A DNA stretch of 64,000 nucleotides, taken from assembly GCA_028583605.1 (NCBI GenBank), contig CM053328.1, forward strand, positions 15,807,107 through 15,871,106, written 5' to 3'. The notes under the pieces were generated by a model. It searched no databases, was not told where the DNA came from, and saw only the letters and a program-made list of their open reading frames with translations. The stretch is from Dastarcus helophoroides. Lineage: Eukaryota > Arthropoda > Insecta > Coleoptera > Bothrideridae. The first letter of the stretch is position 1. Each line of letters begins with the position of its first letter. Of this stretch, positions 4,076-62,690 are shown one piece after another. The position numbers and the translations under genes are program-made.

Positions 4076-6182
4076 TTGACGTCCCTTGGTTTTAAATTAC
4101 TAAGATATTAAATTTTCGAAGTAGGCTTAAAAAAGAGTAATCAAAGACAGCTTTACTTCGCTGATAATATTATTACCTAAATTTTAAAAATCTCACTAAA
4201 GAAAATCCAAAAAATTAAGACGTAATTTATTTTCTAACATAGAGATGTGAGATATGATCTCTGAGTCCGCACAAGAAAATTTTAATAGTCTGGGTGGTCA
4301 AAGCAGATATTTGGAGATGAATTTCAATAAAAGACAGCCAGATTTTTAATTGTTTACAATCCCTTTACAGGAAAAAGGTCATTTCCCACATACTTATTTT
4401 TGAAAATAAATTTTGTTTTGATATTTTATTTAAATTTGCTTTAGAAATTTAAAAAACATGTGTAATAATGCCAGTAGAGTAATATTTAATATTGTTAGAA
4501 ACTTTATATATCTTTTGAATTTAGCGCATTAAAGCAAATAGGAGCATCGAACAATCAGTCATTGATGCGTGGGCTTACGCATCGACTGCGTGTACGAGAG
4601 CTAGATGTAAAACTCTTCAAACTGTTCATGCGTAACTCTGTTCTATTAATAGATCAGCCGCCAAGCTTAAATATTTTTAAGAGAATCTAACAATATAAAC
4701 TATTTTAGAGTCAGTTTTATTACTTTTATTTTGAAACCTACTGCGAAAAATTCACATTTACATAACTTAAAATAAACGTACGGCAAACTTTGAAGGCAAA
4801 TATCTTGAAAACGGTTGTTGGTATTAACATTTAGAAAGAATACCTTTTTTCGTAAAAAATGTAGGTAAATAAAAATATTTGTTTAAAATAAGTGTACATG
4901 AAGGCATAAAAAAGTTATGATGCTTTAGAATAGCGCAGGTGGCGTCCCCTATGAGTTACTGACAACCATTAGCAAATTAGAAATTCTTGACCAAAGAAAC
5001 CTCCCTATGCCAAATTTCTTGTCTATAGTGAAATGTGTTCATCAGTTATGAGAAAAAAATCACAATTTTTTTTCAACTTTGACGCCCTGTATCTCTGTTA
5101 ATATCAACTTTTGGCATAAGGTAAATGTGGCTAAAACACGTTATTTTTATACGAAAATCTACTCTTGCTCTATGTACCATTATTTATGGTCTATCATGTA
5201 TATTTGGGCCATAACGGTAAAATAATATCTACAAGCCGGATTTTAGATAAAATCCTTGATCCTACCTTTTCACCTTTTTCGGCGTTTTTGATGCGTTTAT
5301 TGCCTAAATTTCAATTTTGCTTGGTTTTTGTGCTTTTATACATGATTTGGACCTATTTTCAAAAATTTTCCTGTCTATTTATTCTTATCTATGTATTTTC
5401 CCAAGTACATTGTGACACGCTTCTGAAGAATTTCAGCAGAACTAGGTACTTGATAAAACAAAGCAATAAAATGGAAATTTACTCTTATGACACACCCAGC
5501 CCCTTTAATATTTTGTCTGTCATTATATTATACTTGTTTATTTATCTGAATTTCTAACTAAAACAGATGTTCGGGTAAAATGATAACATTATTGAAAGGA
5601 TAATCCTTGTCTGACTTATCTTTGAACTACTTTGGGTAAGTGCACTTGTGTATAAAAAATGGCCCCATAAAGACAAAGTGCTCTATTTAAACACTTAGTT
5701 TAGAATAATTGTTTAGTTGTAGATATCGAAAAACTTTTTGTAATAATTTAAATTAAATCACAGCAAACATTTTTTTCAGTAAAACCATTGTACTCCTTTC
5801 GATTAAATGCAAAAAAAACCTTGTGTTACGAAGCATCACATTCGCAGTTAATAAAAAAAAATAATAAAAAACAATAATAGTGGTAATAAAAACAAATCTA
5901 TCAGGCAATCTCTTTTAAAAATGGGATTGTAGAATCTACTGTAAATATTTTCATTAGAATTCTAGATAAATTAAGTAGTTCCAATATTTGTAATTCTTTT
6001 GGTGCAAAAATATACGGAGGAAAAACTACTTAAAAATATGCTAACAATAAACACGTCTATACTTTTTATCGTCAAACTAATATGCTGCATTATTTTTTTT
6101 CTCCCTAAAATAGTCATATTAAAGAAGATGTACGTTGTTTTCCAATGTCATTATTCTTAAAAAAATAAAGACTAGCTACGTT
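4076..6182. other. A/T-rich stretch with old element fragments, no gene
   Basis: It contains the inverted repeat partner at 4787-4858 and, near 5040-5160, moderately complex sequence (GACGCCCTGTATCTCTGTTA) that reads like retroelement leader or UTR debris. A 130-codon plus-strand open frame at 5165-5557 is rich in F/L/Y/I, as random A/T DNA would give, with no recognisable domain or splice context; I do not annotate it as a gene. Confidence 0.5.
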
Positions 6183-7383: not shown

Positions 7384-7984
7384 GACCCATGGGCCAATAA
7401 AAAGTTACACCTAAGGAAATACCCTACAACTTTTTAGCAACAATTTCTTTGGAATCGATTTAGTCGTACGTGAGATTCAACCGATTAAATAATGATTCAT
7501 CCATCAGAAGGTTCCAGTTTTGTCACCTAAATATTTTAATTATAAATGTAATAATCTGCTTAGTAAAAATGTTTGTATTTGAGCCCAATCTGATAGCAAT
7601 TGTTGAAAAAAAAATTACTATTCTCAATTGTCTAAAAAAATGTTAGCTGCGTTTTTCATAGAGAATTATCTGATTATAAAATTTATTTACAACTATTTCT
7701 GCTCTATACTACGCTATTTAAAAGATATTTGAGATATACTGATGGTTGAAAGATTTAATGTAATGAATTGTAGCAAATTTCTAAGGCTAAAGAATTTTTA
7801 GTTGCCTCATCAAATGTCATTTGACAGCATCTTATGTAGACGTCGCTTTTAGTCATAATGATTTACAAATAGTAATTCACACTTTTTTTTTAGTGAATCA
7901 CCATTTCTCCCGGTAGCATATGTAAGTGGTATTCTACAGAACTTTTTTTGCTTATTTGATTTTTTGTTGGTGGAACGGACTGGC
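7384..7984. other. A/T-rich stretch, nothing recognised
   Basis: No coding, RNA or terminal-repeat signal was found between the retroelement fragment and the Penelope-type inverted repeat. Short open frames near its right end overlap the inverted repeat and look accidental. Confidence 0.4.
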
Positions 7985-8228
7985 CCTTGGTGATCTTCAA
8001 AAATTAAAATACAAAACTTGTCCCCTAAAACCAAGAAATATTAAAAAACACAACAAAGGTTGCTCTAACGCGTTTCGGCAGCCAAGCCATCACCTTCAGA
8101 GAGATACTCACTCTGAAGATATCTCTATGAAGATGATAGCTTGGCCGTCAAAACGCGTTAGAGCAACCTTTGTTGTGTTTTTTAATCCTTCTTTGTTTCA
8201 GGGGAAACTTTTTGTATTTCAATTTTTG
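7985..8228. mobile_element. Penelope-type inverted-repeat fragment (pLTR palindrome), family A
   Basis: Two arms of about 110 bp face each other around 8110. Key words on the left are AACACAACAAAGGTTGCTC, TAACGCGTTTCGGCAGCC and CACCTTCAGAGAGATA. The right arm has their complements with small changes (GAAGATGATAGCTTGGCCGT, AAAACGCGTTAGAGCAACC). The same words occur at 10985-11130 beside a Penelope-like endonuclease tail, which ties them to that class. The GAAGATG...CGAAACGCGTT order resembles hammerhead motifs known from Penelope-like element pLTRs, but the core here departs from the consensus. Confidence 0.65.
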
Positions 8229-9680: not shown

Positions 9681-9899
9681 TAGGTTAAGTTTAATTTTTT
9701 CTATAATATCGAGCTTTTACTCCAAAATTCGACTTTTTTTCAATATTAAGGATGAACAAAGTTAACTGAATAAATATTGTAACAACTTTTTTAAAAATCC
9801 AATGATGAATTAGTACACTTACTTCAAAAGTCTTCCACATAAGTATCAGCTACGAAATGTCAATCTTGGAAGGAGAGAAATAATAACAAAAAGGTTTTC

Positions 9900-10855
9900 A
9901 AATTAATAACGAGTTTTATGAACAACTTGAGGGCGCAGCCATGGGAAATCTTTTGTCACCTTTCATGGCGTAGCTTTTCATGAGTGTATTTGAAAATCAT
10001 CTTAAAAATAAATGCAGTTTGTTTCCTAGGGTATTGGTTAGATATGTAGATGACATTTTTGCTATTTGCGTAACAAAAAAACAAAGTTTAAATAATTTCA
10101 TGGATGTATTAAATTCCTGTTTTCCAACTTTAATTTTCTTAGCCATCGCCTTCTGAGTCTTCCTCTTAATAGAGAAAGATTCGGAAATGAGTTGAAGACA
10201 ATTAAACATATAGCTGAAGTCAATGGGTTCGATCCAAATATTACTTATAAAATTATTAATAAGATAATATTGGTAAATACCACGACTTTCCGAGCTAAAG
10301 AAAACCAAAGTTGTAAGTTCGTCTCACTTCCATTTAAACCCTCGCTTTCGCATTGTTTAAGTGGAATTTTACGAAAACAGGGCTGCCGGGTTGTTTATAG
10401 CTCTAACGGCAAATTAAATTCGCTTTTGGGTAGTTCGAAGGATAAAGTAGAGCAAACGGATAAGTTCGGTATTTACCAAATTTCCTGTAAAGATTGTCCC
10501 CAAAAGTACGTCGGCAGACTAGACGATCTCTTAAAATCCGACCGAAGGAGCATTTGGCACATTCGAGGTATGGAAGAACTGAGAAGTCAAGTGTGGCTTG
10601 ACATGCTTTTGACTTAGATCAGAGGATAGATAATAATATTAAACTGCTAAGAGTAGTAAATAAGAATTCTATGTTAAATGTATGTAAAAGCTTAGTCATC
10701 CATAAGGCTGGAGACAATCTTATGAATGGTTGGCTTTTAAGTTCACTAAAAATAGTTAAGGTTGATAGATAAGGAATTAAGACACTACGACGTGTATGAT
10801 TAGATGCGCATGCACGTTCGGATGCGGTCGATCATGCACGAATATTCTTAGTATA
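9900..10855 (+). pseudogene. Penelope-like element: RT end plus GIY-YIG endonuclease, broken
   Basis: The plus strand shows GAAMGNLLSPFMA near 9933-9970, then RYVDDIFAI at about 10040-10066 (the YVDD reverse-transcriptase centre). A linker FGNELKTIKHIAEVNGFDP follows, then a Cys-rich endonuclease start, FGIYQISCKDCPQKYVGR (about 10462-10520). GIYQI...YVG is the GIY-YIG signature of Penelope-like elements. Frames are interrupted (for example a TAG after SPFMA, and loss of frame after 10617). The downstream part (10545-10855) is repeated inverted at 11150-11474. It is inserted in the hAT element. Confidence 0.8.
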
Positions 10856-10984
10856 CAGGGTGGGCCAAGTTGAACACTATGGCCTCTAGGAGCTATAAGA
10901 TAAAATATTTTTAAAAATAAATAGTATGGTTGGGCTGTTGGGATTTACATGTTAAAAATAAATATACAGGGTGTTCCAGAATTT
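10856..10984. repeat. short insert bounded by CAGGGTG words between two Penelope-like arms
   Basis: This segment begins CAGGGTGGGCCAAGTTGAAC and near its right end has TACAGGGTGTTCCAGAAT. Such CAGGGTG-starting ends are common in short Tc1-mariner-type insect elements. It separates the plus-strand Penelope-like tail from the inverted one. No coding sequence. Confidence 0.4.
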
Positions 10985-11474
10985 TTTTTTGACGGAACGG
11001 ACTGGTCCTTGGTTATCTTCAAAAATTGAAATACAGAACTTCTTCCCTGAAACCAAGAAAGATTAAAAAACACAACAAAGGTTGCTTTAACGCGTTTCGG
11101 CAGCCAACCTGTCATCTTCAAAGAGAAACTAACATCTAATCTTAAAATTAACCCTTATATACTAAAAATATTCACTTCGTGCATGATCGGCCGCACCCGA
11201 ACGCGCATCCAATCATACACGTCATTGTGTCACAATTCCTTATCCATCGACCTTAACTATTTTTAACAGAGATGAATGGCCTAAAGGCCCAGCGCAACCG
11301 TTCATAAGGTTGTTTCCAGCCTTATGGATGGCTAAGCTTTCACATGCATTTAACATATAATTCTTATTAACTACTCTTAACAATTTGATATTATTACCTA
11401 TCCTATGATCTAATTCAAAGGCATGTCGAGCCACACTTGACTTCTCAGTTCTTCCGTACCTCAAATGAGCCAAA
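10985..11474 (-). pseudogene. second Penelope-like tail, inverted (endonuclease C-terminus plus pLTR)
   Basis: A 77-codon minus-strand frame (11473-11240) reads AHLRYGRTEKSSVARHAFE, LDHRIGNNIKLLRVV and NACESLAIHKAGNNLMNG. This is the C-terminal part of a Penelope-like GIY-YIG endonuclease. It is the inverted counterpart of 10545-10855, with several differences. Beyond the stop (10985-11235) is the element's 3' flank, with TAACGCGTTTCGGCAGCC and AAAGGTTGCTTTAACG, shared with the hairpins at 7985, 28908 and 54356. This copy shows that those hairpins derive from a Penelope-like element. Confidence 0.75.
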
Positions 11475-11479
11475 TGTTT

Positions 11480-11870
11480 CTAGAGTAGACTACTCTAACA
11501 AATATTTAATGTGAGAACCATTTTGTTCTAAAAAAGCCTTATTCTTTTCTCAAGAGCGTTCTTAACCTTTGTTAAAATACTTTCGTCAATTGTTTCAAAA
11601 GCATTCCGTATTCGATTTTTCATCTCCTTGGGTGGTAGGGAAAACATTGTATACAATGTTTTTTACATATTCCCCATAGGAAAAAGTCCATTGGGGTTAG
11701 GTCCGGCGGTTTGGGTGGCCAGTTATGAGGACCGCCTCTTCCAATCCATTTATTTTGAAATTTCGTATTTAAATATTCCCTTACAGAATTGTAAAAATGA
11801 GCAGGACCCTCGTCTAATTGACTCCACATTTTTTGTCAACTACGGTCAAATGTTATATTGGGTATCCGAT
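11480..11870 (-). pseudogene. Tc1-mariner-superfamily transposase, C-terminal fragment
   Basis: The minus-strand frame 11829-11620 reads LDEGPAHFYNSVREYLNTKF, WIGRGGPHNWPPKPPDLTPMD and FFLWG (motif split for length). DEGPAH stands for the family DGAPAH (second catalytic Asp) and PDLTPMDFFLWG holds the third acidic position. A shifted frame continues with PKEMKNRIRNAFETIDE and KVKNALEKRI (about 11520-11620), the usual C-terminus. The N-terminal half and ends are missing. It is inserted in, or adjoins, the Penelope-like arm inside the hAT element. Confidence 0.8.
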
Positions 11871-15682: not shown

Positions 15683-18600
15683 CTGAAAATGAAATATTGC
15701 GTGTGAATTTTTTCTTAAAGAAATGGACGTAAAGAAAAGGACCTATAATATTATATCCTCAGACTGCTTTTTGATAGAATTCGTTATAATCAGTAGAAGT
15801 CTTTTTAGGAGTTTAGGTGTGTTTATCCAGGGAGGTACTGACTCCAAATTTTGTGGCGGGCTACCTCACTCAGCGTCCCTGGGAAATAAGCGTCCTGTTG
15901 TGAGAGAAAAAATAATTGGTCACCAGCTATTATTTATTTATTATTTTTTTTCTTAAAACGGGATGCATATTTCCCTTATATTTACCAATTAATAAAAATA
16001 TTAGAAATGAACATACGAAAATAATAATTAATGTATACTGTTTTATGTTTTCTGAAGAGTATAATTTTTTATTTTTTTTAGAAATGTAGAGCATTTCCAG
16101 AAAATTTCGAATTGAAACTTAAAATTTTAAATTAATTTCGTTGTAAATAACGGTAGTAAATAACAAGAAATCAATTATATTTATTTTTTACATTCCGCGC
16201 ATAAACTTAAAATTTTTATTTTAATCCCAAATGGTTCGACTCTTAAATTTGAACTTGCGACATTTCTAGAGATTGTTCATTATAGACTTTTGTTGGTCGG
16301 AAACTGGGTCGCAGAAATGTTAAATAAAACATTTTTTGAGATTTTCACCTTTTTTGTGACAGTGGCACTTTAAAATCGAAACTATGACTTGCTTGATTTT
16401 TTTTTATTTCTAATACCTTTTTTAGACTTTATGGAAAATTTTGGCTTTTTCTAAATATTTCGAATTTTTAAAAGTGTGGTTATAATTTAGAAATATTTTT
16501 TTTAAATTTCGAAAATTAAAACCTGAAAATCACGCCTATAAATTTTCAGATTTTTTCAAAATTTAGATTCTGTTCCCAAAACAAATTAAAATTTTTTAAG
16601 CTTTTTCCCAAAATGACGTAGAAATTAAAATAAAATGTTTTAAATTAATCTAGTTATAAATAACACAAGTGAATGAATTTTTAAAATTTTCTGTTTAAAC
16701 TGATGATTCTTAGTTTTTTTTTCCAAACAAATTTTATTTTAGTTTAGATATTTCGATATTGTTCTACAGTATTGGAAATGGGGTGTGTATGAACTATTTA
16801 GTTCAATGAAACACCACACTTTAATTATCGAGACTTTATTTATTCAAGAGGTCTCGGAAGGTGTGTGTTGTCGCGACGAAATTATAATCTCAACTTCATA
16901 GTCGAAAAGGAATCTTTTCGTAATATTTCCAAATAAATCTGGTATATTTCATGATACAGTGCTAATATACATGTCAACGTTAATCCCTTAAAACCTATAT
17001 TCAGAAAAGGGACTGACCAGCGTTCTTAGAATTAATCATCCACCTAAGAGTGTTCCAAATAAGTTGAAGTACCCGTATCAGGTTTCACTTCGTAAAAGAT
17101 ACAGCGAAACTCATAAAGCATTCGAGGGTGTCTAATATTTTACTTTAAAATAAGTACCGATAGATTTTTGCTCTCACGTTTTGAACGTGATTTTCAACAT
17201 ACAGTTTTTCATTTTCTTGAAATGTATATTTTGTTAAAAATTTCGACTTTACGTCTTCAGATCAGTGACGGTGCCAAGGACTGGAAGGGCACAATGTGGC
17301 ACATATTTTTTAAAGTGGTTGTTTTGAAGAAAAAGTACCTATCCAATCTGTGTTATTTTGAAAGGAGAAAAATATGTGTTTATAATTAATTTAAAAAATC
17401 ATAAGAAATAATTTATTAATACAAAATTATACATAAGTAATTTACAATAACAAATAATATATTTGGTGAGTAACAATATAGTTAGGGTTGCTATACATCC
17501 CCTATATATGGAACTGTCACCGTATTTCACGACCTAGTCCCGTATTATCGCTTGTCCCGTTTTTATCCTTTAATTCCTCAAACTCTGCGAGAAATCTTTA
17601 TGAAAAGTGAACAGCTCTATATTCCGAGCTTGTTACCTAATCTATTAGATTTTTCAAAAATGTCAAAATGTTCTTTTTTTTCTTTATCTGATCTACAAAT
17701 ATTTTCGACGAATTTGCGAAGAGCAAGATAATGCCTTTTTTAGCCATTTTCTTCAATTTTATTATTTCTTTAAAAGCTGAAGAGCTTTTTTTGTCATCAA
17801 ACGAAACTCGACCATCAATGATTTCGAAAGCGAAAGTTTTTTGAAGTTGAAATTTTCTGATAGGCCGATTTCAATTTTTTTTAGAATTTCCATTTTCTTT
17901 CGAAATTTTGACTTGTTTGAAAACTCAGACTTTTTGACAAACTACCCTTTTTTAAAATAATTTTAGCCTTTTCTGAAACTTTTGACTTTTTTTACATTCT
18001 ACCTACCTCTCGATCCATTTTAAATATTTCAACTTATTCAAATATATTTTTTTTAAGTTTTGTTCTTTAGAAGGATTTAAAAAACTTTTAATTTTTTTAA
18101 AAGTTTGACATTTTTCTGAAAATTCGACTCCGAAAATTTCGACATCCCAAAATTTCTGTACTTTTCAGATTTTTTGAAAATTTTGAATTAAAGAAAGCTT
18201 TCCAAATTTTGGGGTTTTATTGAAATTTTGACTTTTTTTGTAAACTTTGTCACATAATTGAAAATTTTGATTTTTCGACTTTTTTAAAAATTTAGATTTC
18301 TAAAGTTTCTACTATTTTAAAAACTTTGCCTTTTTTGTAAAAATCTTCTTTGGATAAAATAAAAAATTTTCATCTTAAAAGCTACGACTTTTTTTTTAAA
18401 TTTCGACTTTCAAAATTTCTATCTTTTAGAAAATTTTAAAGTTTTAAAAATTTGGTTTTATTTTTTGAGAGAATCATTTTCTCTCAAACATTAGACTTTT
18501 TTTGAAAAAAAATCATTTTTTTAAATCTCTAGATTTCTAAAAATTATTTTTTTTTGTTGAAAATTTCGATATTTCCAGGATTGCTATTCTTTGAAAATGC

Positions 18601-21600: not shown

Positions 21601-24600
21601 ATGAAATTTGAGATTTATAAAAATACACCGATAAGGTAGTAATGAATAATTACAACATGAAAATATACAGATTAAATTTAAAATTTCGATAAAACTAAAA
21701 TTTATTTCTTCTTCTTCTTCATGTGCCACGTCCTCATCGAACGTTGGCTGTCATATTCGCTATTATGATTTTGTTGACAGCATCTGTAAATAGTGTTGCA
21801 CTTGATTTTTTGAACCATTCCCGTAGTTTTATGATGCAGACGCATCATATGAAAAGTATAAAAATTAAATACCACTATTTTATAAAGTGATATTGAAGCT
21901 ACAATTTCTTCCAATAAGATAATTACTACACAACGGAGTTATCAAAACTGCAATATTTACATTCAACTAGGAATTAGGTACGGTCGAGAATATGTAAGAA
22001 ATGGGCGTAAATTAAACACTCAATCATGACGTCAAAACCTACCAATTGGAACGCTTGTTTCTTGCCCGGTTCTGTAGTCCAGAGGCAAATCCAATACACT
22101 TCCCGTAGGTTTCGAAGCCAGGATGTTCTTCTCCGACCAGGTCCTCTCCTACCCTCTATTTTACCTTGCATAATTAAGTGAAGAGTAGTGCAGCGCTCAG
22201 GGTGTCATACTACATGCGTAAAATATTCTAATTTTTTTGATTTTAATAGTTTTAATTATCTCGGATTGTCTATGTATCCGACGTAGAACCTTCTCATTAC
22301 GGACCCTATCGAGCCAACTTATGTGTAGCAATCTGCTGTACACCCATATCTCAAAAGCTTGGAGTTTCTTTATTAGTGTCTCCGTGAGTGTTCAGCTTTC
22401 TACCCCATACAGTAAAGTCGAAAAGATGTAGCATCTTGCGAGTCTTAACTTCAGTTCCATGTTAATATTTCGACTAGATAACACTTTTTTCATTCAGAAG
22501 AACACGGTTCTAACTTTCTCTATTTGGATTTTAATCTCTTTGGTCTTATCCCAGTTGCTATTAATGTTGGAACCAAGGTAGGTAACATTGTCAACTTGCT
22601 CAAGTTCGACATCATAAGCTGTTATTGCTGGGGCATTTACAGGGTGTTTACTTACAGCCATAAATTTCGTTTTTAGAGTGTTAAGCGTTAATCCATATTA
22701 AGCGCATACATTTGTAACTTTATCTAATAGCAACTGCAATTCTTCCAGACTACTGGCTAACAGAACCGTATTGTCAGCATATCTGAGGTTATTGATGCTA
22801 ACTCCATTTACCTTGGTACCGCAATCAGCTTCATTAAGTGCCTCTCTAAAGATGTGTTCGGAGTATAGGTTAAAAAGCAGCGGTAACATAATGCAGCCTT
22901 GTCTTACACCCCTACAGATTGCCACTGATTCCGAGATGTTTCGGCCAATTTTGATGTTTGCTTCCTGGTTCCAATAAAGGTTTTTAATTATATGGAGGTC
23001 CTTATCGTCAATGCCTGTCTGTTCTAAAATCTTGACCAATTTGTCATGTTTAATCCTGTCGAACGCTTTTTTAAAGTCAATAAAGCACAAATAGACAGGA
23101 TGTTCGACATCTCTGCATTTTTGAACGAGAACCTGGATGCAGAATAGTGCTTCTCTAGGTTCCAAGATTGTTGGTAAATATTCTGGAGTGAATTATTCGA
23201 AGAAAGGTTTTAAGAGTATGGCTCATTAAGCTAATAGTTCTGTAATCGGAATATTTCTTTGCATTTCATTCTTAGGAATCCTCACAAATGTTGATTTTAT
23301 CCAGTCAGTTGGTATACTGCCGGTTTCATATATTTTACTAAATAGTTATAGGAGCGACTGTTTCCATTTACTATCAAGGCATTTAACTATTTCAGCTAGT
23401 ATTTCATCTGATTTTGTTGCCTTTCTAATTTTAGCAGTTCTTATAGCATTCTCCAGTTCGTTTTATCATAGGACCTGTAGTGAAGGGTTGTACTTCATTA
23501 CTTACTCTCTCGTCATGGAATAAATCTTCGATGTATTCTTCCCATCTTTTCAGTTTGTCCAAGTCATTTATGCTGTCGTTGTCAACTAGGTTTTGAGGTT
23601 TGTTGTTGCATATACCAGCTAACTCTTTTACTTTCCTTGTGTAAATTGAAAGCGTCATGTCTTCTTTGTAATTCCTAAACATCTTTACAGTTACTTTCAA
23701 ACCACGTTTCCTTTGTAGCTCGTAATTTTTTTCCGATTTCTTTATGAAATTTCAAGGTGTTAGTAATGTTAAGATACCTGTTTAATAAAGATTTGTTTTT
23801 TTATTTTGTATCACAATTGTATGATATCTTCTGAACTTTACAAACCAATAATTGTTTATATTTAAAAATCAGCAGACTATTGGCACGTTAATTTTTTTGT
23901 TTAAAATAAATATTTTTAAAAGATGGTCCTCATCGATCTGGGGACATTTTGCCTTTCGTATAAAACTGCTCTGGCAGTCCAAGTGTAATTTCACACAGCG
24001 GCGAGCGGCTATTAAATAATGGGCATCGGCCTGCAAACAGCCCTGGAGACAGCACTCCGGCGAGCTTAGCCCAGCAGCCCGCCGCGCCAGTCCGTCATTG
24101 TGTTTAGCCCAAACTAGAAAATATCTAATATGAAAATTTCGACCAAAATTTACTTATCTAGACTTGACTCAACTCCAAATTTCTACTTGTGTTCTCTCAA
24201 AGTTCCAACCTTAAGTAATGATGACAAAAGTTGAAAAAAAGCTGGATTTTTCATTTTGGTGATGATTTGAAATCTATAGAAACAATAAAACCTGGGCCTT
24301 TAAATGTTTTGTAAAACTTTGATCAATAGGTCCGGAAAAAGCTTTCGATGGATTCACTTAAAATTTTACCCGACTATTGTCGGGACATTAATTTCTAAAA
24401 GATCTAGAAACACCCATTCATATTTGTAGTAATCCTTAAAAAATTAAAGTTATTTTATTCTCAATATTAATTCTCAATGTTATTCTTCAAATTGATATTT
24501 AAATATTAATTAATTCTTCAAATTAATATTGAGAGCAAACATTTTTTTTTAATCATTGAAGTGTTCTGGAGTACATTTATTTGAATTTTTATTTGAAAAT

Positions 24601-27600: not shown

Positions 27601-30600
27601 GTTCCCTTCCTCCACTTATTTTAGTTTAGACTTCTATTTTTCTAAAATTTTGCGTTAAATCTTTCGAGTGTAAACCCAAAATACCGAGAATTTTCTAATA
27701 TTTCGATACCAACAGAATGGTTTGTTTACTACAAAGTATAGTTTTTTGGATGACGTTTTTCCAGAAATTTGGAATTCTTTCCTCGATTACAAACTTAAAC
27801 TTCGACTACTCCTAGGAAAGTTGACTCTATTTTAGGGGTTTTAACCTTCATTTCTAAATTTCGACCGTTTTCTGTCAATTTGGGCTTCGACTTTTTTCTG
27901 TGATGAGTATGAGCTTATCCGGAATTTTCAATTTTTTTCTAATGATTCCAAGTTCATAATTAACAATTAACCCCTTCTAAAATTTTCCCACATTTTCCGA
28001 TTTTAAACGCTATTTTGCTTATAAATGTCTAATTTTTAAAAATGTCTCTTTTTTAATAAGTAATTCTATCTTAACATTTTTGATGTTTATTTTTTTTCTA
28101 AGATTTCGATTGTAAACGTAGTTTTTTTGTAAATTTTGATTTTTCTGCTTGGATTTCTCAATATTTTAAGGTTAAACTCGAACTGTGAGTTATTCCGAAA
28201 TAACAAAGTTTTTCTGATCATCCCAGTTTCACATTTTGAATTTTGACCTTAATCTCGAAAAGCCTACCTTTTTTCTGAAGATAACAGTGCAATGTTAATT
28301 TGTTTCTAAAATTTTGATTTTAAAATAAATATTTTTAAGTAAACACTTTAAATTGTTACTCTTTTTTCTAAAACTTCAATTGTAAACGTAATTTAAATAA
28401 CATCCGATTTTATCGAACTTTTTTCGACTTAAATTTCGGATTTTTTTCTAGCTATTTTGAAGCTGAACTCCAACTTAGATTTATAAACTAGATTGGTTCC
28501 GAAATAACGAGGTTATTCTCATAATTCAAGTCTTCTTTTCTTTTGAAATTTTAACTTTAAATCCGAAACTTCTACTTCTTTCATAATTAAGAATTGTTTT
28601 TCGAGCTTTGTTCGACTTTCAATATTCTAATTTTCTACTCAACATTTCGAGGTTAAACACTTTATTCATAAACTCTGAGTTTTTCACAAACAACGAATTT
28701 TTACTCACAATTGCACTTTTAACTTTTTATTTTTTCCATCCGATTTTAAGCGCAAATAACTTGATAAGTGTTTTTTTTTCCAAAAGAAACTCAAAATTTC
28801 GACATTTTTGTCATAATTCTAAATTTCGGTTGGTTTACGTTTTTCTTTTTGGTTATAAACGCTGCTTCGAAGTTTCCAGCTGAATTTCGAAAATTGGACT
28901 TTTATTAAAAATGGAAAAACAAAACTCGTCGCCTGAAACCAATAAAGATTAAAAACACAACAAAGGTTGCTCTAGCTATCATCTTCAGAGAGATACTGTA
29001 CCAGTATCTGAAGATGTTAGCTTCGCTGTCGAAACTCGTTAGAACAACCTTTGTTGTGTTTTTTAATCTTTCTTGGTTTCATGGGACAAGTTTTGTATTT
29101 CAATTTTTGAAGATAACCAAGGGCTAGCCCGTTCTACCAAAATTATCGACTTTTATTATCAATATTTTGAATTCAAATTTAAAATTTGGTTACAAATTTA
29201 AAATTTGCTTACAAATTTTCAATTTTGTTTCTCTATCTTTAAGTTAAATTTTCCGTCTTATAAGTTTATTTCCAAAGTTATAAGTCATACATCGAAATGT
29301 TAAGGTTCCTTTCCTAAAATATTGAGTAAGGTGTCTTATAAATTCAGAATCTTCTATTTTTAGTCCAACATTAATACCAAAAGTTCTTTTTTAAAAATCT
29401 AAATATAAAAGCTTTTTATACAGTAGAATTTTTGGTTTAAGCTATTTTTTTAAATTGTGCCTCGAGATTTCGATTGTAAAGGCGAATTTTTCATAAATTT
29501 TGAATTTTTTTCAAATTTCGACTGTTTCTCAGTTTTCAAGGTAAGACTTTCCAAGATACTTATAAATTGCTACTTTCTTCTATTCGATTATAAGCAAGAA
29601 TTTTTTAATTCCAACCTTTTTTCTTAAAATTTTGAGTGTTTGAAATTTCGATAATAAGCCAAAATAAATTGTTTGATTTTTAAAAGAAGTCACAGTTTTT
29701 GAAAAAGTCTGAGTTTTGAGAAAAAGGAGTAAAGCGAAATTGTTAGAGAAAAACCTAAATTTATTATTTGGGGAAAGGTTTAAAAAAAATAAACTTCGAA
29801 ATTTTCAAAAAAAAAATCGTTATTTAAAGAATCAATTACCAAAAGTTTTCTTAGGTAGATATTTAAAAAAAAAGTCGAATATTCGAGTTTAAAGTCAAAA
29901 TTTTGTGATTAAAATGAAAATTTTACGAATTATTTCACAGCCACATAAATTTCTGGTTGTTTTTTTTTCTCGAAATTTTGATTGTTTTCCCAAAATTCGA
30001 AGTTTAAGCTTAAAACAGTTATTTTGAGTTATAATTCAAAATTTCGAGAAAAACATCTAAGCTTATAGGTTCTACAAAAAGTCTAAATTTTCAGTCAGTC
30101 AAAAGTCTTTAAAAATACGAATTTATCAAAATTTCAAATTTTCAAGTTTTCTAAAGTTTTTCAACTTTTGACCAAAATCTTGAATTTTCCAGGTTTTATT
30201 AAAATTTTCACTTTAAATTTTACATTGTCAACTTTTTTAATTTCGAATTTTTAATCGAAATTCGAGAAAATCATGTAATTTAAAAAAAAAAGAAGTATGA
30301 CAATGAGACTACTGGCTGAAGTGAAAACTTGAAGGTAGGAAGTAGCAGAGCCTATATACTCGTAGTGTGGTCGAAACCCACATTTGTCACAAACTGACCT
30401 ACCTTTTTATATTTGTGGTTTGGAGTCGTGTGGAAACAAATCTAATTTTATTTATTTATAATGAAATACACTAATACACTTTGCACTCTTTTTATTTATT
30501 GCACGTAATATTCAACTTATTAGTACTCTTAGGATAAAAATGTGATTTTTGTGACAATAAATTTACGACGAGGTCATTGCTATATGACACATTTTGTTAA

Positions 30601-33600: not shown

Positions 33601-36600
33601 ATATTTTGTTACTTAATTTTCAATTTAGTCAAGTATCACAATACCTCACTAGAGGTTAATATCACCTGTTTAACAATTAGAGATTCGAAAATGCTTAAAG
33701 CTAAGAAAAAGGAACACTAATATAGTGAACACAAAAATGTAATGAATGCAAGGTGAGAAATTAGGAATGTGCTCCAATGTTATCGTTGTATATTGAGTCC
33801 TTTAGGTTCCCGTAGTCAATTAAGTAACAAACATTGTTTAGTGAACTAAAATTTTTATGAGTTTTCGTAAGTGGTGCGATCAATAATTTTGGAACACACC
33901 GCTGTTGTTTTACGACTGGATCATAATTGAAAACTAAAACAAAATCGACGGAAATGCAGAAACACTATTTGCCAAATATAAAAATATGCGTTATTTCGTA
34001 CAACGCCCGATTAAAAATCAGAACTGAATGATTAGAGACAGAGTCGAAAACTTCGTAACTAGACTTACTTTCCCCAAGAGCAAATTGAATAGAAGCAAAA
34101 TTTGTTTTAAATGAAAGCTTAGCCTTTACTAAAGAAATGAGGCGTCGATAAAGGAATGTTTCCAAAATAGTTGAAACAACTCAAAAATGACTTAAATTAA
34201 GACTTGAATGTTTCAGTGTAGTCACTTCTGAGTATGTAACTAACTGAAATAAATTCAGTAACACTAAACAAAACCAGATTAGTTATCCACAGGACCACAG
34301 GGATAATGAAAAACCATATTTATCCAACAAATTCTGAGGGTGAATTCAGGCTTGTCAAATGTTGTGAATTGTGGCAACCGCTCTCAGGTTAGAATGGCAA
34401 CTTACTGATTGCGCCTGGTAGTTAAAACGGAAATATTTTGCATTGTTAATTGCGAGCGTAAGATAGAAATTGCGCAATTCCAAGCGTTATTTAACAATTT
34501 CTCCTTATTATTTATTAAAGTGACTTTCCTTTCGCGTTTTAAAGAAAGAACAAAACTGAACGTCGTCAAATTAAAGTAAAATTTCTTTTATTTTAATCTA
34601 TCATGTTTTAAAGCTTAACATAGTTAAATGTTAGACCGCGCAGTTTGAATCTCCGAAATTCACACCTTGCATTAGACGGATTTATGAATGCGCAAATAAA
34701 TAAAGGCGTATGAGATGAATCGTTTCGTACTAATAGTTATTGTACTGAAGGCAATGTCTAAAGTCTTTTCGGACCCTCCATAGCATGAGTTCCATGCAGG
34801 AGGCTGCGTCTTCGTAACTGTCGTGGCCATTGGGACCGTTTTGGATGCTGCGTTTTAGAATTGTCGAAGTCAAATTCTTCAGGGACCTCTTGTAAGGTAA
34901 ACCATTGTGATGGGGAAACGAATATGCAGTGTCTACAATCGAACCGTGTACGATCCTAAGGGCCCTGAGATCGTTCTCTAGCGCATGTCCAATGAGAATG
35001 GTCTTGGCACTGATGAAACTCATGAGATCATTTTGCACTTCTCGAAGAGATTTCACGTTTTTCCCGACGAGATCTTTCGCTGTTATCCCGGAAAAACGCG
35101 TGTTAAAGTCCACGATTTCATTCTCCGGTCGCACAAAACTATTATAAACCAGACGCCCATCCATCCCCACCACAGTCACTTTGGTACACTCGAGCCCCCG
35201 CGCAGTGTAGCACATCTCGCAGTCCAACGCGTACACTCCGTAATTACCATCGATTGCTACACTCCTCCGCGACTTAGTTCTTATGTAATCGTCAAAAGGT
35301 CCATTTAACCCATTCATGACGCCGTTCCAAACGTGTAATTTGCTCGTGGTGCATCCCCTGGTGTTCGCCTTCCCCCGACAGCAGGTAAATTCTTGCGCGA
35401 GGCCGCTTCCGTCCTCCTGCACCCGCAAGTGCAGCCGCCCCCAGTGAAACACGCACCGCTCGTGAGTTAAATACTCGTTTTTCGCCAAGAAGAAACTGCT
35501 GCCGCAGCGGGCGCACGGTATCTCGAAGCTGGAGCCGTTGGTAGCATCGTATCTGGCGAAAAGCGAGTGCTTCTGCTCGATATGTGACTCCTCCGAGCTA
35601 CAGGCCCCCGAACTTACGCTCGAACTCCTACCGGACGACTCATCTTCTTCCAAAATCTCTCCAGAGTCGCTCGAACTACTAGACACTTGTCCTCCGTTGC
35701 AATCATTCCACATCGGACGCATCTTATACGGCACGAACTCCTTCGCGTTCACATCGAATTCCTTCCCTGGAAATCGCTCGCTCCTGAATATAACCGCCTG
35801 ATTATTATCGGTTTCCACAGGATACCCTAGGCTGAGCATCTGTTCGTGTGTTATCATGTAACTGTGCAGAAACTCCACGAATTTGCTTTCAGGGATGTTA
35901 AGTTTTTGGTACTGGCGAAGTATGGGCATCGGATCGGCTTTCATGCACTCCACCTTTTTCGGCTTTTGCTTTTTCTTGTCGGGCGGCGATGCGTCCTCTC
36001 GTCTTCGGTTCTTCCGCTGCCTACGCGACAGGCCTTTTGTCTGCGGACTGGATTCGATGCTCGACGGTTGACTGTTTTCTTTGTTGCTACTTTCATCAGC
36101 TATGACACCTCCTGGGTCAGGATCCTCTGCACACAAAAAACACCGATTAATAAAACACCAACACCACATCACCCCCACTATCACTAGTTTCAGATTTCTA
36201 TGCCAATTCAATCGATCGGTTATAATTTTGATGTTTTTAGGATACCCCACCTTAAACACATAAGAAATGATTTAAGCATAACGTTAGTGTCCCAAATTTC
36301 GCAACCTTGCGAAATTCTACTAGGAACTCTGACATTAAATATGAAATGTTATTATTATCCTTAGATTTAATTTCATTCACTGATGAATTGTTATGGTTAT
36401 AAATTTAAAGTTTTTGGCATATCTGAAACAAATGTCCCAAAATAACCCAATTTGCGAAATTCTATTATGCACCCCGACAATAAATCTGGAATTTCAGCAT
36501 CACATTTGAAATTTGTGCCTCACGTTCGAAAATATAATAATAATAATTAAAGCTTTGGCCGAAAATTCGGATTAAACGGAATATTCGTAGAAGTCTGTGA

Positions 36601-47644: not shown

Positions 47645-48030
47645 ACAGTACTTTAGTATGTCAACCATATTCAAAGTGAAACTCTTCCAAAATGAAAAAT
47701 CGTACAACAGACAGGATTGTTAAAGACAGGAAGGCACCATACGTCAGGATATCAACTATACTAGAGGCGAAATTCGTCCGAAATAAAAAATTCAGAAATT
47801 TCGAAACAATGAATATCGGACAAGATGGATACGATAGAAGACCACGGTCATTCAGTTGGTCAAAAATACCAGAGGCGAAACTCTTCTTAAATAAAAAATG
47901 GCACAAAAGAAAAAATAGATACGATAGAAGAGCATGGTAACTATGCTGAGTTACCGTGCTCTTCTGTCGTATCTATCTTTTCTTTTGTGTCACTGTCAAC
48001 CATACCAGAGGCAAAACTCTTCTACTGGAA
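47645..48030. repeat. roughly 100-115-bp tandem repeat with a 40-bp-arm hairpin
   Basis: Copies begin near 47659 (TCAACCATATTCAAAGTGAA), 47752 (TCAACTATACTAGAGGCGAA), 47860 (TCAAAAATACCAGAGGCGAA) and 47998 (TCAACCATACCAGAGGCAAA). Each contains an ACTCTTC/ATTCGTC and AAATGAAAAAT/AAATAAAAAAT part. Two also contain GATACGATAGAAGA. At 47900-47985 a near-perfect inverted repeat, AGATACGATAGAAGAGCATG facing CGTGCTCTTCTGTCGTATCT, interrupts the series. The unit length explains the open frames on both strands; I do not consider them genes. Confidence 0.7.
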
Positions 48031-51150: not shown

Positions 51151-52677
51151 ATGCAAATTAAAGCTTCAGTTTTCTGGTTTTCAGGTACTAAGTATAACAT
51201 TTTTTTAGCGCTATACGAAAATCAGGAGCCGAAAATGTTTCCAAATATGAGGAGCTGGCGGGAAGAACGATGAAAGTGCATAGCCTTGAATAACGCTTTT
51301 GATTTTAAGAACTTTTACCACTTTTTTAAAGAAAAGTAAACATAATCATAAGTAAGTGTTGACAATAGTGTAGTCCTGTGCTTTAACAATACCAGCAAGA
51401 ATAATGTGGCAGAAAAAAATTTATTGTTGTCATTTGTATTTTATTTTATTATTTTTTTCATGTTAAGCATAACCACATTATTGAGATATTTTGGTTATAG
51501 TTTTTTTTAAGATTTCTATTAAATACCATCATTGTTTGCTCAAATAATAGTTTAAAAAAGGTGCAGCATCCCTAATTATCCAAGAACCCTCCAAACAAAA
51601 AGTACAGGATGCCCCATTTTTAGGACTTTTTCAGGAGATATTGGACTTATTATTAAAAATAAAGACTGTCATACTTTTTGATCAGATAAATATTCCAGTG
51701 TACAGGGTGATTTTTAAAATCTTGGCTCAACGGTATTCTATCAAACGTAACGCACACTAATCGCTTTTGTCATAAACGTCAAAACAATTTTTCGGCATAT
51801 AACATATGTATGAGAAACTATCAACGGTTTATTTGCAAATGTTACCAGATACATATATAGTACAATAGTACATGCAAAAATGTATAGATTGAATTATCTA
51901 TCTTGATTTTTAAAAAAATGTGCACCCTCATCGTTCTTCCTGTTACATCCTCTAAGATTAATTTTAAAAAGATCCATGGAATTCAATATTTTGTTTCTAG
52001 TGATTCCATGATAAAACTCTTTAAGATAACTTAATCTCTTTAATTTGAGAGGTTTTCGAGTCCTCCACGATGATTTTTCGCTGAATCATCGTAGTTCAAA
52101 ACAAAAAAGTCATTTTTGACTTTAGCAATTAATAAGTCTGGAAATAATAAAAGTACTTTCTGAGAATCATAAGAAAACACAAAATTGCTTTCATCTAAAA
52201 CAGTTTACGGAATCCAATACATATTTTCCAGAAATCGCATCAAAAAACTATTTTAGATAATTTAATATTTTTTAATTTGTTTCTGGGAAACGGAAAGGTA
52301 TTGAGGCGATGGTCAACTTACTAATTATTATAACTCATTGGGCTAGATAAAGGATTACTGCGGCAGTAATCAAATGATTATAAACTCAGAGGGTAGTAAT
52401 TGCATTTTACTAATGAAAGGTAAAGATTTTTTACAAAAGGGACCAAAACGCTCCCATTGAATTAAAATAATTATATCGTTTAATTAAATTGTTTACAATT
52501 TTTGTCTATACATCAGTATCTATTTTATAATACAATGCTGTTGGTATATAAAATGAAAAATAGTTTGCTGCCTGATCATTTAAAATTTAAACGTGTGGAG
52601 GAAATTCATTATTACAGTACTAGAAATGTCACGAATTATTACATTACAAGAGTAAATAAGGAAAAATTACAATATTA
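51151..52677. other. mixed stretch with mariner-type end remnants, no gene
   Basis: TACAGGGTGATTTTTAAAAT near 51702 and AGTACAGGATGCCCCATTTT near 51601 look like worn Tc1-mariner-type ends. GAACGATGAAAGTGCAT (51266) is partly complementary to GCACCCTCATCGTTCTTCCT (51921), so the two may bound a 0.65-kb insertion. No transposase was seen. The 68-codon frame 52502-52708 looks accidental. Confidence 0.4.
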
Positions 52678-53312
52678 TAACATCTTTGGAAGCTGCACAA
52701 CTTTTTGAATACAATGCACCAAAAAAAAGTGATTTTTAAAGGATCGAAAAATTTTTTGGTCCCATTTTATTTTTTAACCTAGAAGGCTATGACTCATTAA
52801 AATTAACTCTAATGGACCACATTAACCCTAAAAAAATTAAATCACGTGAAAAAAGGAATATTTCATTCTTTTCTTACGTGATAAAGTTAACAAAGATGGT
52901 TTTTATGTCATAACTTCATTTGCTTAAATGGCACCATATTGGTACTGTGGCTACCACCAAAAATTAATAATTAGTGGCGAAACTAACCATATTTTCAATT
53001 TTGCTACGAAATCAATAGAACTGAAGTTATAGCCAAAAGAATTCAAAATATTCGCGTTCAATTTATTTGAAGAGTTTTTCAATAAGAACATAAGGTAGCT
53101 GTGAAAAACAAATTTAGAAAACATACACTTTCTAAGTTTTCCTAATTTCATTTTTTTGCAGCACTCATATGGTCAGTTAACGTTAATTAGAATGAGTCAT
53201 GACCTTCTAGGCTGAAAAATAAAATGAGACCAAAAAAAATGTAGATCCTTTAAAAATCACTCATTTTATGTGTATTGTATCCAGAAAATTGTGTAGATTC
53301 TAAAAATGTAAT
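52678..53312. mobile_element. foldback/MITE-like element with about 180-bp inverted arms
   Basis: The left arm (52678-52860) and right arm (53110-53312, inverted) share ACAATTTTCTGGATACAATA / ACAACTTTTTGAATACAATG, GTGATTTTTAAAGGATC, CCTAGAAGGTCATGACTCAT / CCTAGAAGGCTATGACTCAT. The centre (about 250 bp) is unique A/T-rich DNA. Long arms and no coding sequence fit a foldback element; I saw no clear target duplication. Confidence 0.7.
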
Positions 53313-53489
53313 AATATACATGCTGTTCCATTTAAAAATCAAAAGTTGGTATTAGTTTTAGCAAAAGTGACAGCAGTAGGAATGTCAATTTTAAGTCAAA
53401 ATTTGATATTTCATAAATACATCAAGTATAGCAACTCTGAAAATTTTATCTTCGTAAGTAAAGAAAAAATAGGGGGTGTACCATGATTT

Positions 53490-59800: not shown

Positions 59801-60230
59801 AGTTTTGAAAAATGTCGAAATGTTCAAAAAGACAAAATTTGGAAAAGTAAAATATTTGAAAAATCAAACATTAAAAAAAACCGAAATTTTGAAAAAAGTT
59901 AAATTTTTGATAAAAAGGTGACATTTTAAAATAGAGGTCAAAATTTTGAGAAACAATTCATATCTTTACGATAAGCCAAAAATGAAAATATTAAAAATAT
60001 GGAAATTTGAAAAAACATTCAAATTTTGGAAAAATATCTAAATTAAAAAAAATCAATTTATTAACACGTTATTACATTTTAAAATAGAGGTCAAAATTTT
60101 GAGAACAATTCATATATTTACGATAAGCCAAAAAATAAATTTCAAAAAAGTGGGAATTTTTAAAAAGAGTCCAATCAAATATTTGAAAAAATCAAAATTT
60201 TGAGAAAAATTTATATTCTTCATGGTGAAC
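56880..60230. repeat. large tandem duplication, about 1.5-1.6-kb unit, of AAAAGTCGAAATTTTGAAAA repeats
   Basis: Long-range order repeats once. GATATATTTTTAAAATAAAT occurs at 57079 and 58638; TTTTGCAAAAAAGTCGGAAT at 57954 and its variant near 59452; TTGTTATTTCCAACAAAAAT and TTATTATTTTTAACAAAAAA follow; AAAGTAAAAGTTTTGAAAAA at 58160 and 59786; TTCATATCTTCACAATAAGC at 58329 and TTCATATCTTTACGATAAGC at 59950. A third partial copy starts at about 60075. All words are in minus orientation (GTCGAAATTTT on plus). Offsets between pairs vary from about 1.49 to 1.63 kb, so indels accumulated after duplication. Confidence 0.75.
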
Positions 60231-60495
60231 TCTTATTGACCCGAAACATTATGTTTTTTAATTTTATTTAACATTTCTTTGGCCCAGTTTGGAAATATTT
60301 AAATTTTTATTGTTTGTTGACAATATTCTAAAACAGTTTCTGAAATATGACTACGTGATATTTAAATTTATTTAAAACGTCACCTCATGACAGTTGACAA
60401 AATAAGAGAAATAGAAGACCAAAATTCGATATGAAAAGAAATTTTGTTTTTTTGATAAATTATGAAAATATAAAAAATGCATAAAAAAGGTTGTA

Positions 60496-60542
60496 GCACT
60501 GGACATCGATGTTTCGCTCTCATTTGAGCTCGTCAGGAGTCC
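60496..60542 (-). ncRNA. hammerhead ribozyme copy with broken stem I (minus strand)
   Basis: The complement of 60542-60496 reads GGACTC, CTGACGA, GCTC-AAATGA-GAGC, GAAA, CATCGATG, TC, then CAGTGC. The catalytic core and stem II are intact and stem III is a self-complementary CATCGATG. The 5' strand of stem I is GGACTC, not the GCACTG needed to pair with CAGTGC, so two of six pairs, including the one next to the core, are lost. Activity is probably weak or absent. Confidence 0.6.
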
Positions 60543-60549
60543 ATGTTAT

Positions 60550-60597
60550 GCACTGCTGACGAGCTCAAAGGAGAGCGAAACATCGAATGTCCAGTGC
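60550..60597 (+). ncRNA. minimal hammerhead ribozyme (complete core, all three stems paired)
   Basis: In order: stem I GCACTG (60550-60555); core CTGACGA (60556-60562); stem II GCTC / loop AAAGGA / GAGC (60563-60576); GAAA (60577-60580); stem III CAT / loop CGA / ATG (60581-60589); T-C (60590-60591), giving a GUC cleavage site; stem I partner CAGTGC (60592-60597). Every conserved hammerhead position (CUGANGA, GAAA, NUH) is present and stem I pairs 6 of 6. Cleavage is expected between 60591 and 60592. Very short stem III with small hammerheads is known from Penelope-like elements and retrozymes, which often work as dimers. Cleavage itself is predicted, not shown. Confidence 0.85.
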
Positions 60598-60889
60598 TAC
60601 AACCTTTTTTATGTATTTTTCATATTTTATATTTTCCTAATTTATCAAAAAAAAACAATTTTTTTTTCATATCTAATTTTGGTCTTATATTTTTTATTTT
60701 TCCTATTCTATGTAAAATAAACTAACCTCTTATCTTGTCAACTGTCATGAGGTGACGTTTTAAATAAATTTAAATATCACGTAGTCATATTTCAGAAACT
60801 GTTTTAGAATATTGTCAACAAACAATAAAAATTTAAATATTTCCAAACTGCGCCGAAGAAATATTAAATAAAATTAAAAAACAAAAATT

Positions 60890-62690
60890 CATATACAAAA
60901 AGCTAAAATTTACAAAAATGAAAATATTAAAAATGTGGAAATTTCAAACAAAAATCGAAAGTTAGAAAAAATGTAGAATTTAAAATAAAAAAGCAATTTA
61001 GTTGCACGTTCAAAAAAGTAGTTAGTGGCCGCGGCAATAACGAGTAAGGTCAGTCAGGTGGCGTACCAATAACTTTATCGTCGACTGAAATTAGCAAATT
61101 TATTTCAAATAATCTCCGAAATTATCCGATTGTCGGTTTCGGTTACGGATTCGGATATTTTTTTTATGTCGCATATCCGATAGTTTCGGTTACGGAGCTC
61201 CATAACATTCCTAATGTCCATCTTGTGTAATAAAATACTTAAATTACTTACATAAATTTAAAAAACTGACAGATTTGTGAAAAAACTATTGTTGTGTATA
61301 TTTAAATGTCACATTATTTAAAAAATCAAAGTAATTATCATTTTACATCAAATAGTTCAAAAAAATCATTCATAAGAAAGTCGAAGTTATAGTTAACAGT
61401 TGGTTAGGAAACAACAGCACATAACAGAGGTAAAAAACTGTAGATTTTGGCAATTAAACTAAAAAATGGGAGTATTTAAAAACTGTAACTCTACAGTCAA
61501 AACTGTAGGGTTGGGCACAGTGCTGGCAACGCCAATTTCCTGTCAAAATTTTGTCATAGTTTCTGAAATAATGCATTTTATGATCAGGTAGTTCTAAGGC
61601 TTCTAAAGTAAGTTTTTGCATTTTCGCGTTTTTTGCTGGTAATAGTGACAGGGAAAAAACAATTTTTAACAGTCATATCATCCAAAGTGAGATAAGATCT
61701 TGTGGTTTTCCAATTGACTAACTCGGCACTTAAGAGTACTTATTATTAGAACAGATTATAGAACGAATTTCTAGTTTCCTGGAATTTAAAAATATTGTAG
61801 GAGGTTAATTATTAAGTTTTTTTTAAATATCATTAGGCATTAGCAGGTAAGAGATCGTTAAATGTTTACTTGCCCCCTGTTGTGACGAACACTATTGTTT
61901 AAGAAGTCTCTGGCCATGTTTTTGCAGGTGTAGAAAAATCCGGGCATTCGGCTTTATTACTAAACGCTTTTTCTTCTTTAAAAAGAACAAAAAACTAAGG
62001 TAATGTAATTTGTTTTTTTGAATTTGTTAACTCACTAAACACTTGGTGAAATATTATGAAATTGCATAAGAGGTTATGTTAATTATTACTAGATAACTTT
62101 TTCGTTATCCATTTTTTCGAAAAAATATGTAAATTGTTTAAATAATTTATAGCTATTGACAAATTACCAAACAAAATGTTTTGATTCTCACGTGTGATTA
62201 ATGCGATATTTAAAAAAATACTTCAAATGTCACTACATGTGTCAATGAATTAATTAGGTTAGATTCTACATAGAAAATAAAAAAAACATCGATGTCAGAA
62301 AATCAAAGAAATAAAACATAGATAAAAGCAAATAATGTATTTGATAAAAAATGTGAAAAGTTGATCAAAAATCAAAATTCACAAAATTTTGCCACCTACT
62401 AAGCTGATTTTGTTCAGTCTTAATTGTTTTTGGGGGGAAATAGGAATGCTGTATTTTTCTATATTTTAAGTCGATTACATTTTAAAGATAATTAAGCAAT
62501 AGTCGATGAAAATATCAAAAAAATCGAACAAAGTATTGCCTATTATTTATAACAGGTTTATTTTACCGATCGCACTTAAAAAATAACAATAAATTAATTC
62601 CTACTTATATTTTAATACTTTCGATCGAATGGGAGTTTCAATCAGATAGTTAGAATAGTAGTTTATGGTAAATGGGGGCCACACGAAGGC
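60890..62690. other. stretch right of the palindrome: repeat words, then mostly single-copy A/T-rich DNA
   Basis: Repeat-family words reach about 61010. At 61100-61200 a TTCGGTTACGGATTCGGATA stretch with CATATCCGATAGTTTCGG forms an old TTCGGA-type microsatellite with inverted parts. The remainder shows no exon or transposon end that I can support. Confidence 0.4.

Follow-up and report, generated by a model that had tools for sequence, protein, structure and literature searches.

The DNA analyzed here was a 64,000-nt stretch of the Dastarcus helophoroides genome, referred to as the window. It contained a palindrome of about 630 bp (60253-60882) in which two pLTR-like units were arranged head-to-head, and a hammerhead ribozyme motif was located at the head of the right unit. 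Sequences of Penelope-like elements (PLEs) were present in other parts of the window. The features are listed below; M, the reference for the unit alignments, is L195:4709-5470, and L192, L195, and L205 are loci fetched from the genome.

60550-60597, plus strand: complete type I hammerhead motif in the right arm, with predicted cleavage at 60591/60592; matches Rfam HH9 and belongs to the 31-nt core family
60546-60882, plus strand: right pLTR-like unit with the ribozyme at its head; 60540-60884 aligns to M371-715 at 86%
60253-60544, minus strand: left pLTR-like unit, head-to-head with the right unit; 60214-60544 aligns to M379-755 at 78%
60496-60542, minus strand: degraded hammerhead relic in the left arm; HH9 score of 20.6 bits, E 1.9 over the window
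60217-60252, minus strand: optional 3' tail of the left unit, absent from the right one; aligns to the L192 tail at 88% over 41 nt
60205-60216: left copy of the candidate target-site duplication, AAAAATTTATAT; 12 nt, with one mismatch to 60883-60894
60883-60894: right copy of the candidate target-site duplication, AAAAATTCATAT; adjoins the right end of the palindrome
60600-60607, plus strand: CAACCTTT, shortly 3' of stem I; a minus-strand twin begins at 60493, and the window's PLE pLTRs have the sequence at the same place
7959-8228: head-to-head PLE pLTR palindrome with hammerhead-like cores at its center; 89-92% to the L205 pLTR
9887-11486: decayed PLE, with a reverse transcriptase motif and an HTH/GIY-YIG region on the plus strand, and an inverted endonuclease end and one pLTR copy on the minus strand
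28907-29142: second PLE-pLTR palindrome with hammerhead-like cores; matches L205
54386-54478, plus strand: PLE-pLTR fragment with a hammerhead-like core; matches L205

The 48-nt motif at 60550-60597 consisted of GCACTG/CAGTGC (stem I), CTGACGA, GCTC/GAGC (stem II), GAAA, CAT-CGA-ATG (stem III), and the cleavage dinucleotide TC. This arrangement, which had a CUGANGA / GAAA / UH core, three helices, and an open stem I, is that of a complete type I hammerhead, and self-cleavage is predicted; the sequence-only reading had placed the core and all three helices exactly. In energy calculations, the hammerhead fold was at -11.1 kcal/mol versus -12.8 kcal/mol for a different, unconstrained minimum. The covariance search that the sequence-only reading had proposed yielded a match to Rfam HH9 (RF02275) over 60541-60614, with a score of 43.6 bits and an E value of 1.2e-9 in 1 kb or 7.5e-8 over the whole window. 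Although these E values supported the reading, the score was below the gathering score of 52 and a default Rfam scan therefore does not list the ribozyme. The motif shared with HH9 its core, the stem II pairing GCUC/GAGC, a 6-bp inner stem I, and UAC in internal loop I, but its stem III was unlike that of HH9.

Motifs with stems I, II, and III of at least 6, 4, and 3 bp, respectively, were absent from 300 first-order Markov sequences with the same composition as the window, and 15 motifs in the same 300 sequences reached looser stem limits. The motif scan by itself was not decisive, since the real window also returned an unsupported hit near 17769. Specifically, this second hammerhead-like arrangement (17769-17885, plus strand) had stems I, II, and III of 8, 6, and 3 bp, long loops, and no Rfam match, and it is probably a chance occurrence in A/T-rich DNA. 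At the level of sequence, stronger evidence for a hammerhead came from a 31-nt pattern (one base free) that spanned the core and stem II and left stem I outside. This pattern matched 1,058 times in the surveyed genome (538.9 Mb in 50 contigs), and the reversed control matched 0 times. A chance likeness to a hammerhead would be in keeping with the hit near 17769, which passed the same scan, but the HH9 E value of 7.5e-8 and the count of 1,058 against 0 make such a likeness extremely improbable. The claim that the motif was not to be expected by chance thus held, and the same 1,058 core copies refuted the claim that it sat in a stand-alone palindrome.

The arms of the palindrome joined at about 60545, immediately 5' of each ribozyme, and were 97% complementary across the outer 160 nt. 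The relic in the left arm had C-C and G-G mismatches in stem I, its stem III strands CAT and ATG were only 2 nt apart, and its hammerhead fold was at -3.6 kcal/mol. At the left end of the palindrome were 36 extra bases, followed by the 12-nt candidate target duplication. Random local pairs equaled this 12-nt, one-mismatch duplication in 343 of 20,000 cases, and the candidate match would be weak if taken alone. When the central 118 nt were folded as one RNA, the predicted energy was -94.6 kcal/mol (z -17.6) and the ribozyme was hidden; a read-through RNA is thus predicted to bury the ribozyme in a hairpin, and for this reason the window copy is probably inert or a source of dsRNA. Rfam matches to mir-3160 and MIR5048 were located on palindromes, had scores far below gathering, and were rejected. 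A separate hairpin at 47899-47992 (44-nt arms, 91%) had a weak MIR2871 match that was also well below gathering. Another inverted repeat, at 52672-53317, had 165-nt arms (79%) that were 316 nt apart and a total length near that of the ribozyme palindrome; the ribozyme element, compared with the window by BLAST, did not match this repeat.

A genome search with the ribozyme tip produced 816 candidates, 40 of which were scored; these yielded 82 matches, and 20 loci were fetched from among the best. One locus, L195, contained a direct tandem of two copies, whose ribozymes were located at 4385 and 5089, for a period of 704 bp. The family monomer was a non-coding sequence of 704 bp; its pLTR-like unit had the ribozyme at the head, and the remainder was an optional tail and a body. 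When aligned to this monomer, every one of the 20 fetched loci contained a pLTR-like unit in which the ribozyme was close to the start. In 13 of the 20, the sequence extended upstream into the body; an inverted partner was located upstream in 13 and was usually 5'-truncated, at varying points; and 14 had a tail of at least 33 nt. Three loci (L197, L198, and L199) were palindromes like the one in the window; in them, the two units had 5' ends that differed by no more than about 25 nt in family coordinates and lay at the ribozyme. The window locus is a damaged, folded-back member of the family and is ordinary for that family.

We also examined neighboring copies among the first 100 listed of the 1,058 ribozyme places; these 100 were all on contig C1. 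Eleven pairs were within 5 kb of each other; 10 were inverted, all 10 of them head-to-head, and the sole direct pair had a spacing of 709 bp. Target duplications were analyzed at 17 element edges, namely those of 16 of the 20 loci (L187, L189, L191, and L200 were left out) and that of the window. Exact duplications of 12 to 16 nt were present at 10 of the 17 edges, and 1 to 8 of 300 random pairs matched such lengths. At the other seven edges, the window's among them, the exact duplication was only 6 to 10 nt.

The 630-bp palindrome in the window with its 97% outer arms, and the three fetched palindromes like it, resemble what a DNA transposon or foldback MITE carrying a hammerhead by coincidence might leave. 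However, the other fetched loci were asymmetric, the inverted partners were truncated at variable 5' points, the tail was variable, a direct tandem was present, and the duplications were not uniform but 12 to 16 nt long. MITEs and foldback elements characteristically have constant terminal inverted repeats and a target duplication of constant length; neither was found in the family, and we regard this origin as very improbable.

In the monomer body (L195:4823-4866), AGCGGTTAGG and GTTCGACCC look by eye like Pol III A and B boxes. This likeness is only a lead because ARAGORN (6 of the 20 loci) and Rfam (L195) showed no tRNA, and a tRNA-derived body was rejected. The exact ribozyme pattern had no matches in viral_contigs. 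A looser core pattern matched at least 120 stretches in viral_contigs and 55 in genome_contigs; among the best 20 BLAST matches between the element and these stretches, at most 36 nt were matched, mainly in the core.

For the ribozyme, 26 copies were aligned; L191, a near-duplicate of L190, was omitted, and copies lacking CTGANGAGCTCAAA were left out. In this sample, which was chosen by ribozyme, 18 of the 26 copies had an identical 47-nt ribozyme, and stem III of 22 of the 26 contained CATCGATG followed by TC. Mean column agreement was 0.98 in the ribozyme versus 0.91 in the next 319 columns, a comparison with a bias, since the ribozyme itself was the means of finding the copies. With its flanking A and T, CATCGATG forms the self-complementary sequence ACATCGATGT. 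Alone, ACATCGATGT made a poor stem III of three pairs around a 4-nt loop; between two ribozymes, it is predicted to form a 10-bp duplex at -12.9 kcal/mol. Such a self-complementary stem III could suit cleavage as a dimer. In the case of the right window copy, a 1-nt insertion created CAT-CGA-ATG, and this version was found at one place in the genome, the window itself. The 3-bp, CGA-closed stem III reported in the sequence-only reading is therefore real at this locus but private to it, since the insertion occurs once in the genome and 22 of the 26 aligned copies have the self-complementary form.

Both ribozyme copies of L195 scored 39.2 bits with HH9, which is likewise below the gathering score of 52, and RNAfold gave the L195 copy an extra 3-bp outer helix across the internal loop of stem I. 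At L192:7682-7728, a family copy had GCAAAA in place of GCGAAA and an altered stem III and cleavage site; judging from the sequence, these core changes would be expected to abolish activity.

In Pfam searches with the window PLE pieces, the only match was to RVT_1 (E 0.0021, below cut-off), the GIY-YIG piece was empty, and a first protein search gave no match. When the three pieces were combined into one query, they matched proteins P0121-P0125 (E 6.6e-45 to 2.4e-28), which had RVT_1 and/or GIY-YIG domains by Pfam, not all of them above the curated cut-offs. No source names P0121-P0125 Penelope, and the putative PLE assignment is based on the pairing of RVT_1 with GIY-YIG, a domain pair described for a PLE (PMC11167929). 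A separate reverse transcriptase fragment at 22698-23192 (minus strand; RVT_1, E 1.2e-21) was distinct from the PLE remnant, and a REXO1-like exonuclease gene at 34730-36271 (minus strand) encoded a protein whose first named relatives were proteins of the beetles Callosobruchus and Leptinotarsa (51-54% identity).

In the genome, 114 PLE frames were scored of 5,011 candidates, and the open frames were up to 824 aa long. The intact PLE with the 824-aa frame, L205, was arranged head-to-head with arms of 2,071 bp at 99.9%, and its DNA was 83-95% identical to the window PLE remnant and to the window pLTR copies at 8 kb, 11 kb, 29 kb, and 54 kb. The L205 pLTR contained a hammerhead-like core, CTCT-CTGAAGATGACAGC...GCTGTCGAAACGCGTT-AGAG, located 122 nt downstream of the ORF, which Rfam did not recognize. 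The sequence CAACCTTT followed stem I in both the L205 pLTR and the ribozyme family; it occurred eight times in the window versus 4.4 expected under a Markov model, and seven of the eight were beside hammerhead-like cores. Beyond CAACCTTT and its position, the ribozyme-family unit had no real DNA similarity to the L205 pLTR. A second PLE family (L204) had an 802-aa frame followed by a divergent stretch that was hammerhead-like by eye and had no CTGANGA.

We found no reverse transcriptase or GIY-YIG ORF within the window element, nor between the units of L192, where two same-strand units were about 3.3 kb apart and no ORF of 100 aa was present. The sequence-only reading had noted no visible reverse transcriptase; this was correct for the element itself but not for the window, which contained PLE protein remnants and pLTR palindromes. 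The window PLE sequence, the degraded minus-strand ribozyme, the palindrome of about 630 bp, and the one-copy nature of the CGA stem III had been overlooked. In a comparison that took in 17 of the 114 PLE matches and 100 of the 1,058 ribozyme places, all 17 PLE places in the covered range of C1 were at least 19,850 bp from any listed ribozyme place. Based on this partial survey and on the absence of an ORF in L192, the ribozyme family looks non-autonomous.

These data also bear on whether the family consists of the pLTRs of an autonomous PLE that has gone unrecognized, with the 704-bp form as an internal-deletion derivative. The pLTR, the tail, and the head-to-head architecture are all PLE-like, and hammerheads in PLE pLTRs are known (PMC7761336 and PMC11167929); the sequence-only reading had rightly placed the motif with the kind known from PLEs and retrozymes. 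But L192 had no 100-aa ORF, and no PLE was within 19 kb of the C1 places listed (100 of 1,058), and we consider this origin unlikely.

The family resembled PLEs in the location of the ribozyme, close to where a pLTR-like repeat has its 5' end, and in its optional tail, head-to-head inverted copies, target duplications at 10 of the 17 edges, and, at the window locus, an A/T-rich site. According to PMC3846280, inverted PLE pLTRs are mostly head-to-head, their palindromic junctions are read as the result of self-priming, and a 31-bp optional tail and target duplications of 8 to 10 bp are part of PLE anatomy; in PMC11167929, where a purified Anolis PLE protein was studied biochemically, the targets are described as A/T-rich and reverse transcription as starting internally. 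The family differed from PLEs in that no reverse transcriptase or endonuclease ORF was found, its duplications were 12 to 16 nt rather than the 8 to 10 bp reported in PMC3846280, and its core was the canonical CTGACGA, unlike that of L205. Solo-pLTR captures in Adineta vaga, as described in PMC3846280, similarly have PLE-ORF-free sequence between pLTRs, target duplications, and palindromic head-to-head junctions, but the words ribozyme and hammerhead do not appear in the text of that paper.

Metazoan non-LTR retrozymes are the other point of comparison, and the family may simply be a classical member of this group, in which tandems are transcribed, cut by the hammerhead, circularized, and reverse transcribed, and the inversions are incidental. 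The type I hammerhead, the non-coding unit with low G+C, and the direct tandem at 704 bp are as in such retrozymes, and insect retrozyme-like repeats have been reported, with PLEs proposed as helpers (PMC7229834). The basis of that proposal was that PLEs and retrozymes both have type I hammerheads and tandems and that the genomes analyzed contain both. On the other hand, the 704-bp monomer exceeded the approximately 170 to 400 nt given for animals in PMC7229834 (which also describes ribozyme-flanked circRNAs of 150 to more than 1,000 nt), the tail was PLE-like, and direct tandems were a minority, with 1 of the 11 close pairs among the first 100 listed places versus 10 head-to-head. We view a classical retrozyme as a substantial but minority possibility, and one that overlaps with our preferred explanation and does not exclude it. 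In the open-licence literature searched, we found no published description of this ribozyme family, and nothing matching for a hammerhead with a palindrome or MITE, a retrozyme in a beetle, or a hammerhead with a SINE and Pol III.

The explanation that we prefer, and consider probable, is a non-coding retroelement family of high copy number, apparently non-autonomous, in which the ribozyme stands at the head of the pLTR-like unit and insertion relies on machinery of the PLE type. Such a family would be retrozyme-like with PLE-type integration and would lie between PLEs and metazoan retrozymes. Its starting points were all observed, namely the motif, the core count, the 704-bp tandem, the head-to-head sample, the tail, the duplications, and the co-resident PLEs. 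We suggest that transcription would run through tandem units and that every ribozyme would cut the transcript, possibly while two of them were paired as a dimer by the self-complementary stem III. A PLE reverse transcriptase with its endonuclease would then act in trans to copy the family RNA, and 5' truncation together with self-priming or template jumping would give rise to tailed, inverted copies in head-to-head order. In this scheme, the window locus would be an insertion of which just two pLTR-like units are left, joined 5' end to 5' end at the ribozymes.

The insertion marks are circumstantial, and they are more direct support for a PLE helper than the earlier proposal had. It is nearly, but not quite, an even call whether the PLE insertion signature in the family amounts to direct structural evidence that PLE reverse transcriptase copies hammerhead retrozymes in trans, with the ribozyme marking the junction; at the listed places on C1, no PLE protein was tied to the ribozyme family, which speaks against the link.

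For the mobility of retrozymes, the family makes the PLE-helper proposal testable, given about a thousand exact cores and non-coding units that carry PLE-type insertion marks and reside beside PLEs with long frames. It also provides a large natural set for the question of whether a palindromic stem III acts as a dimer.
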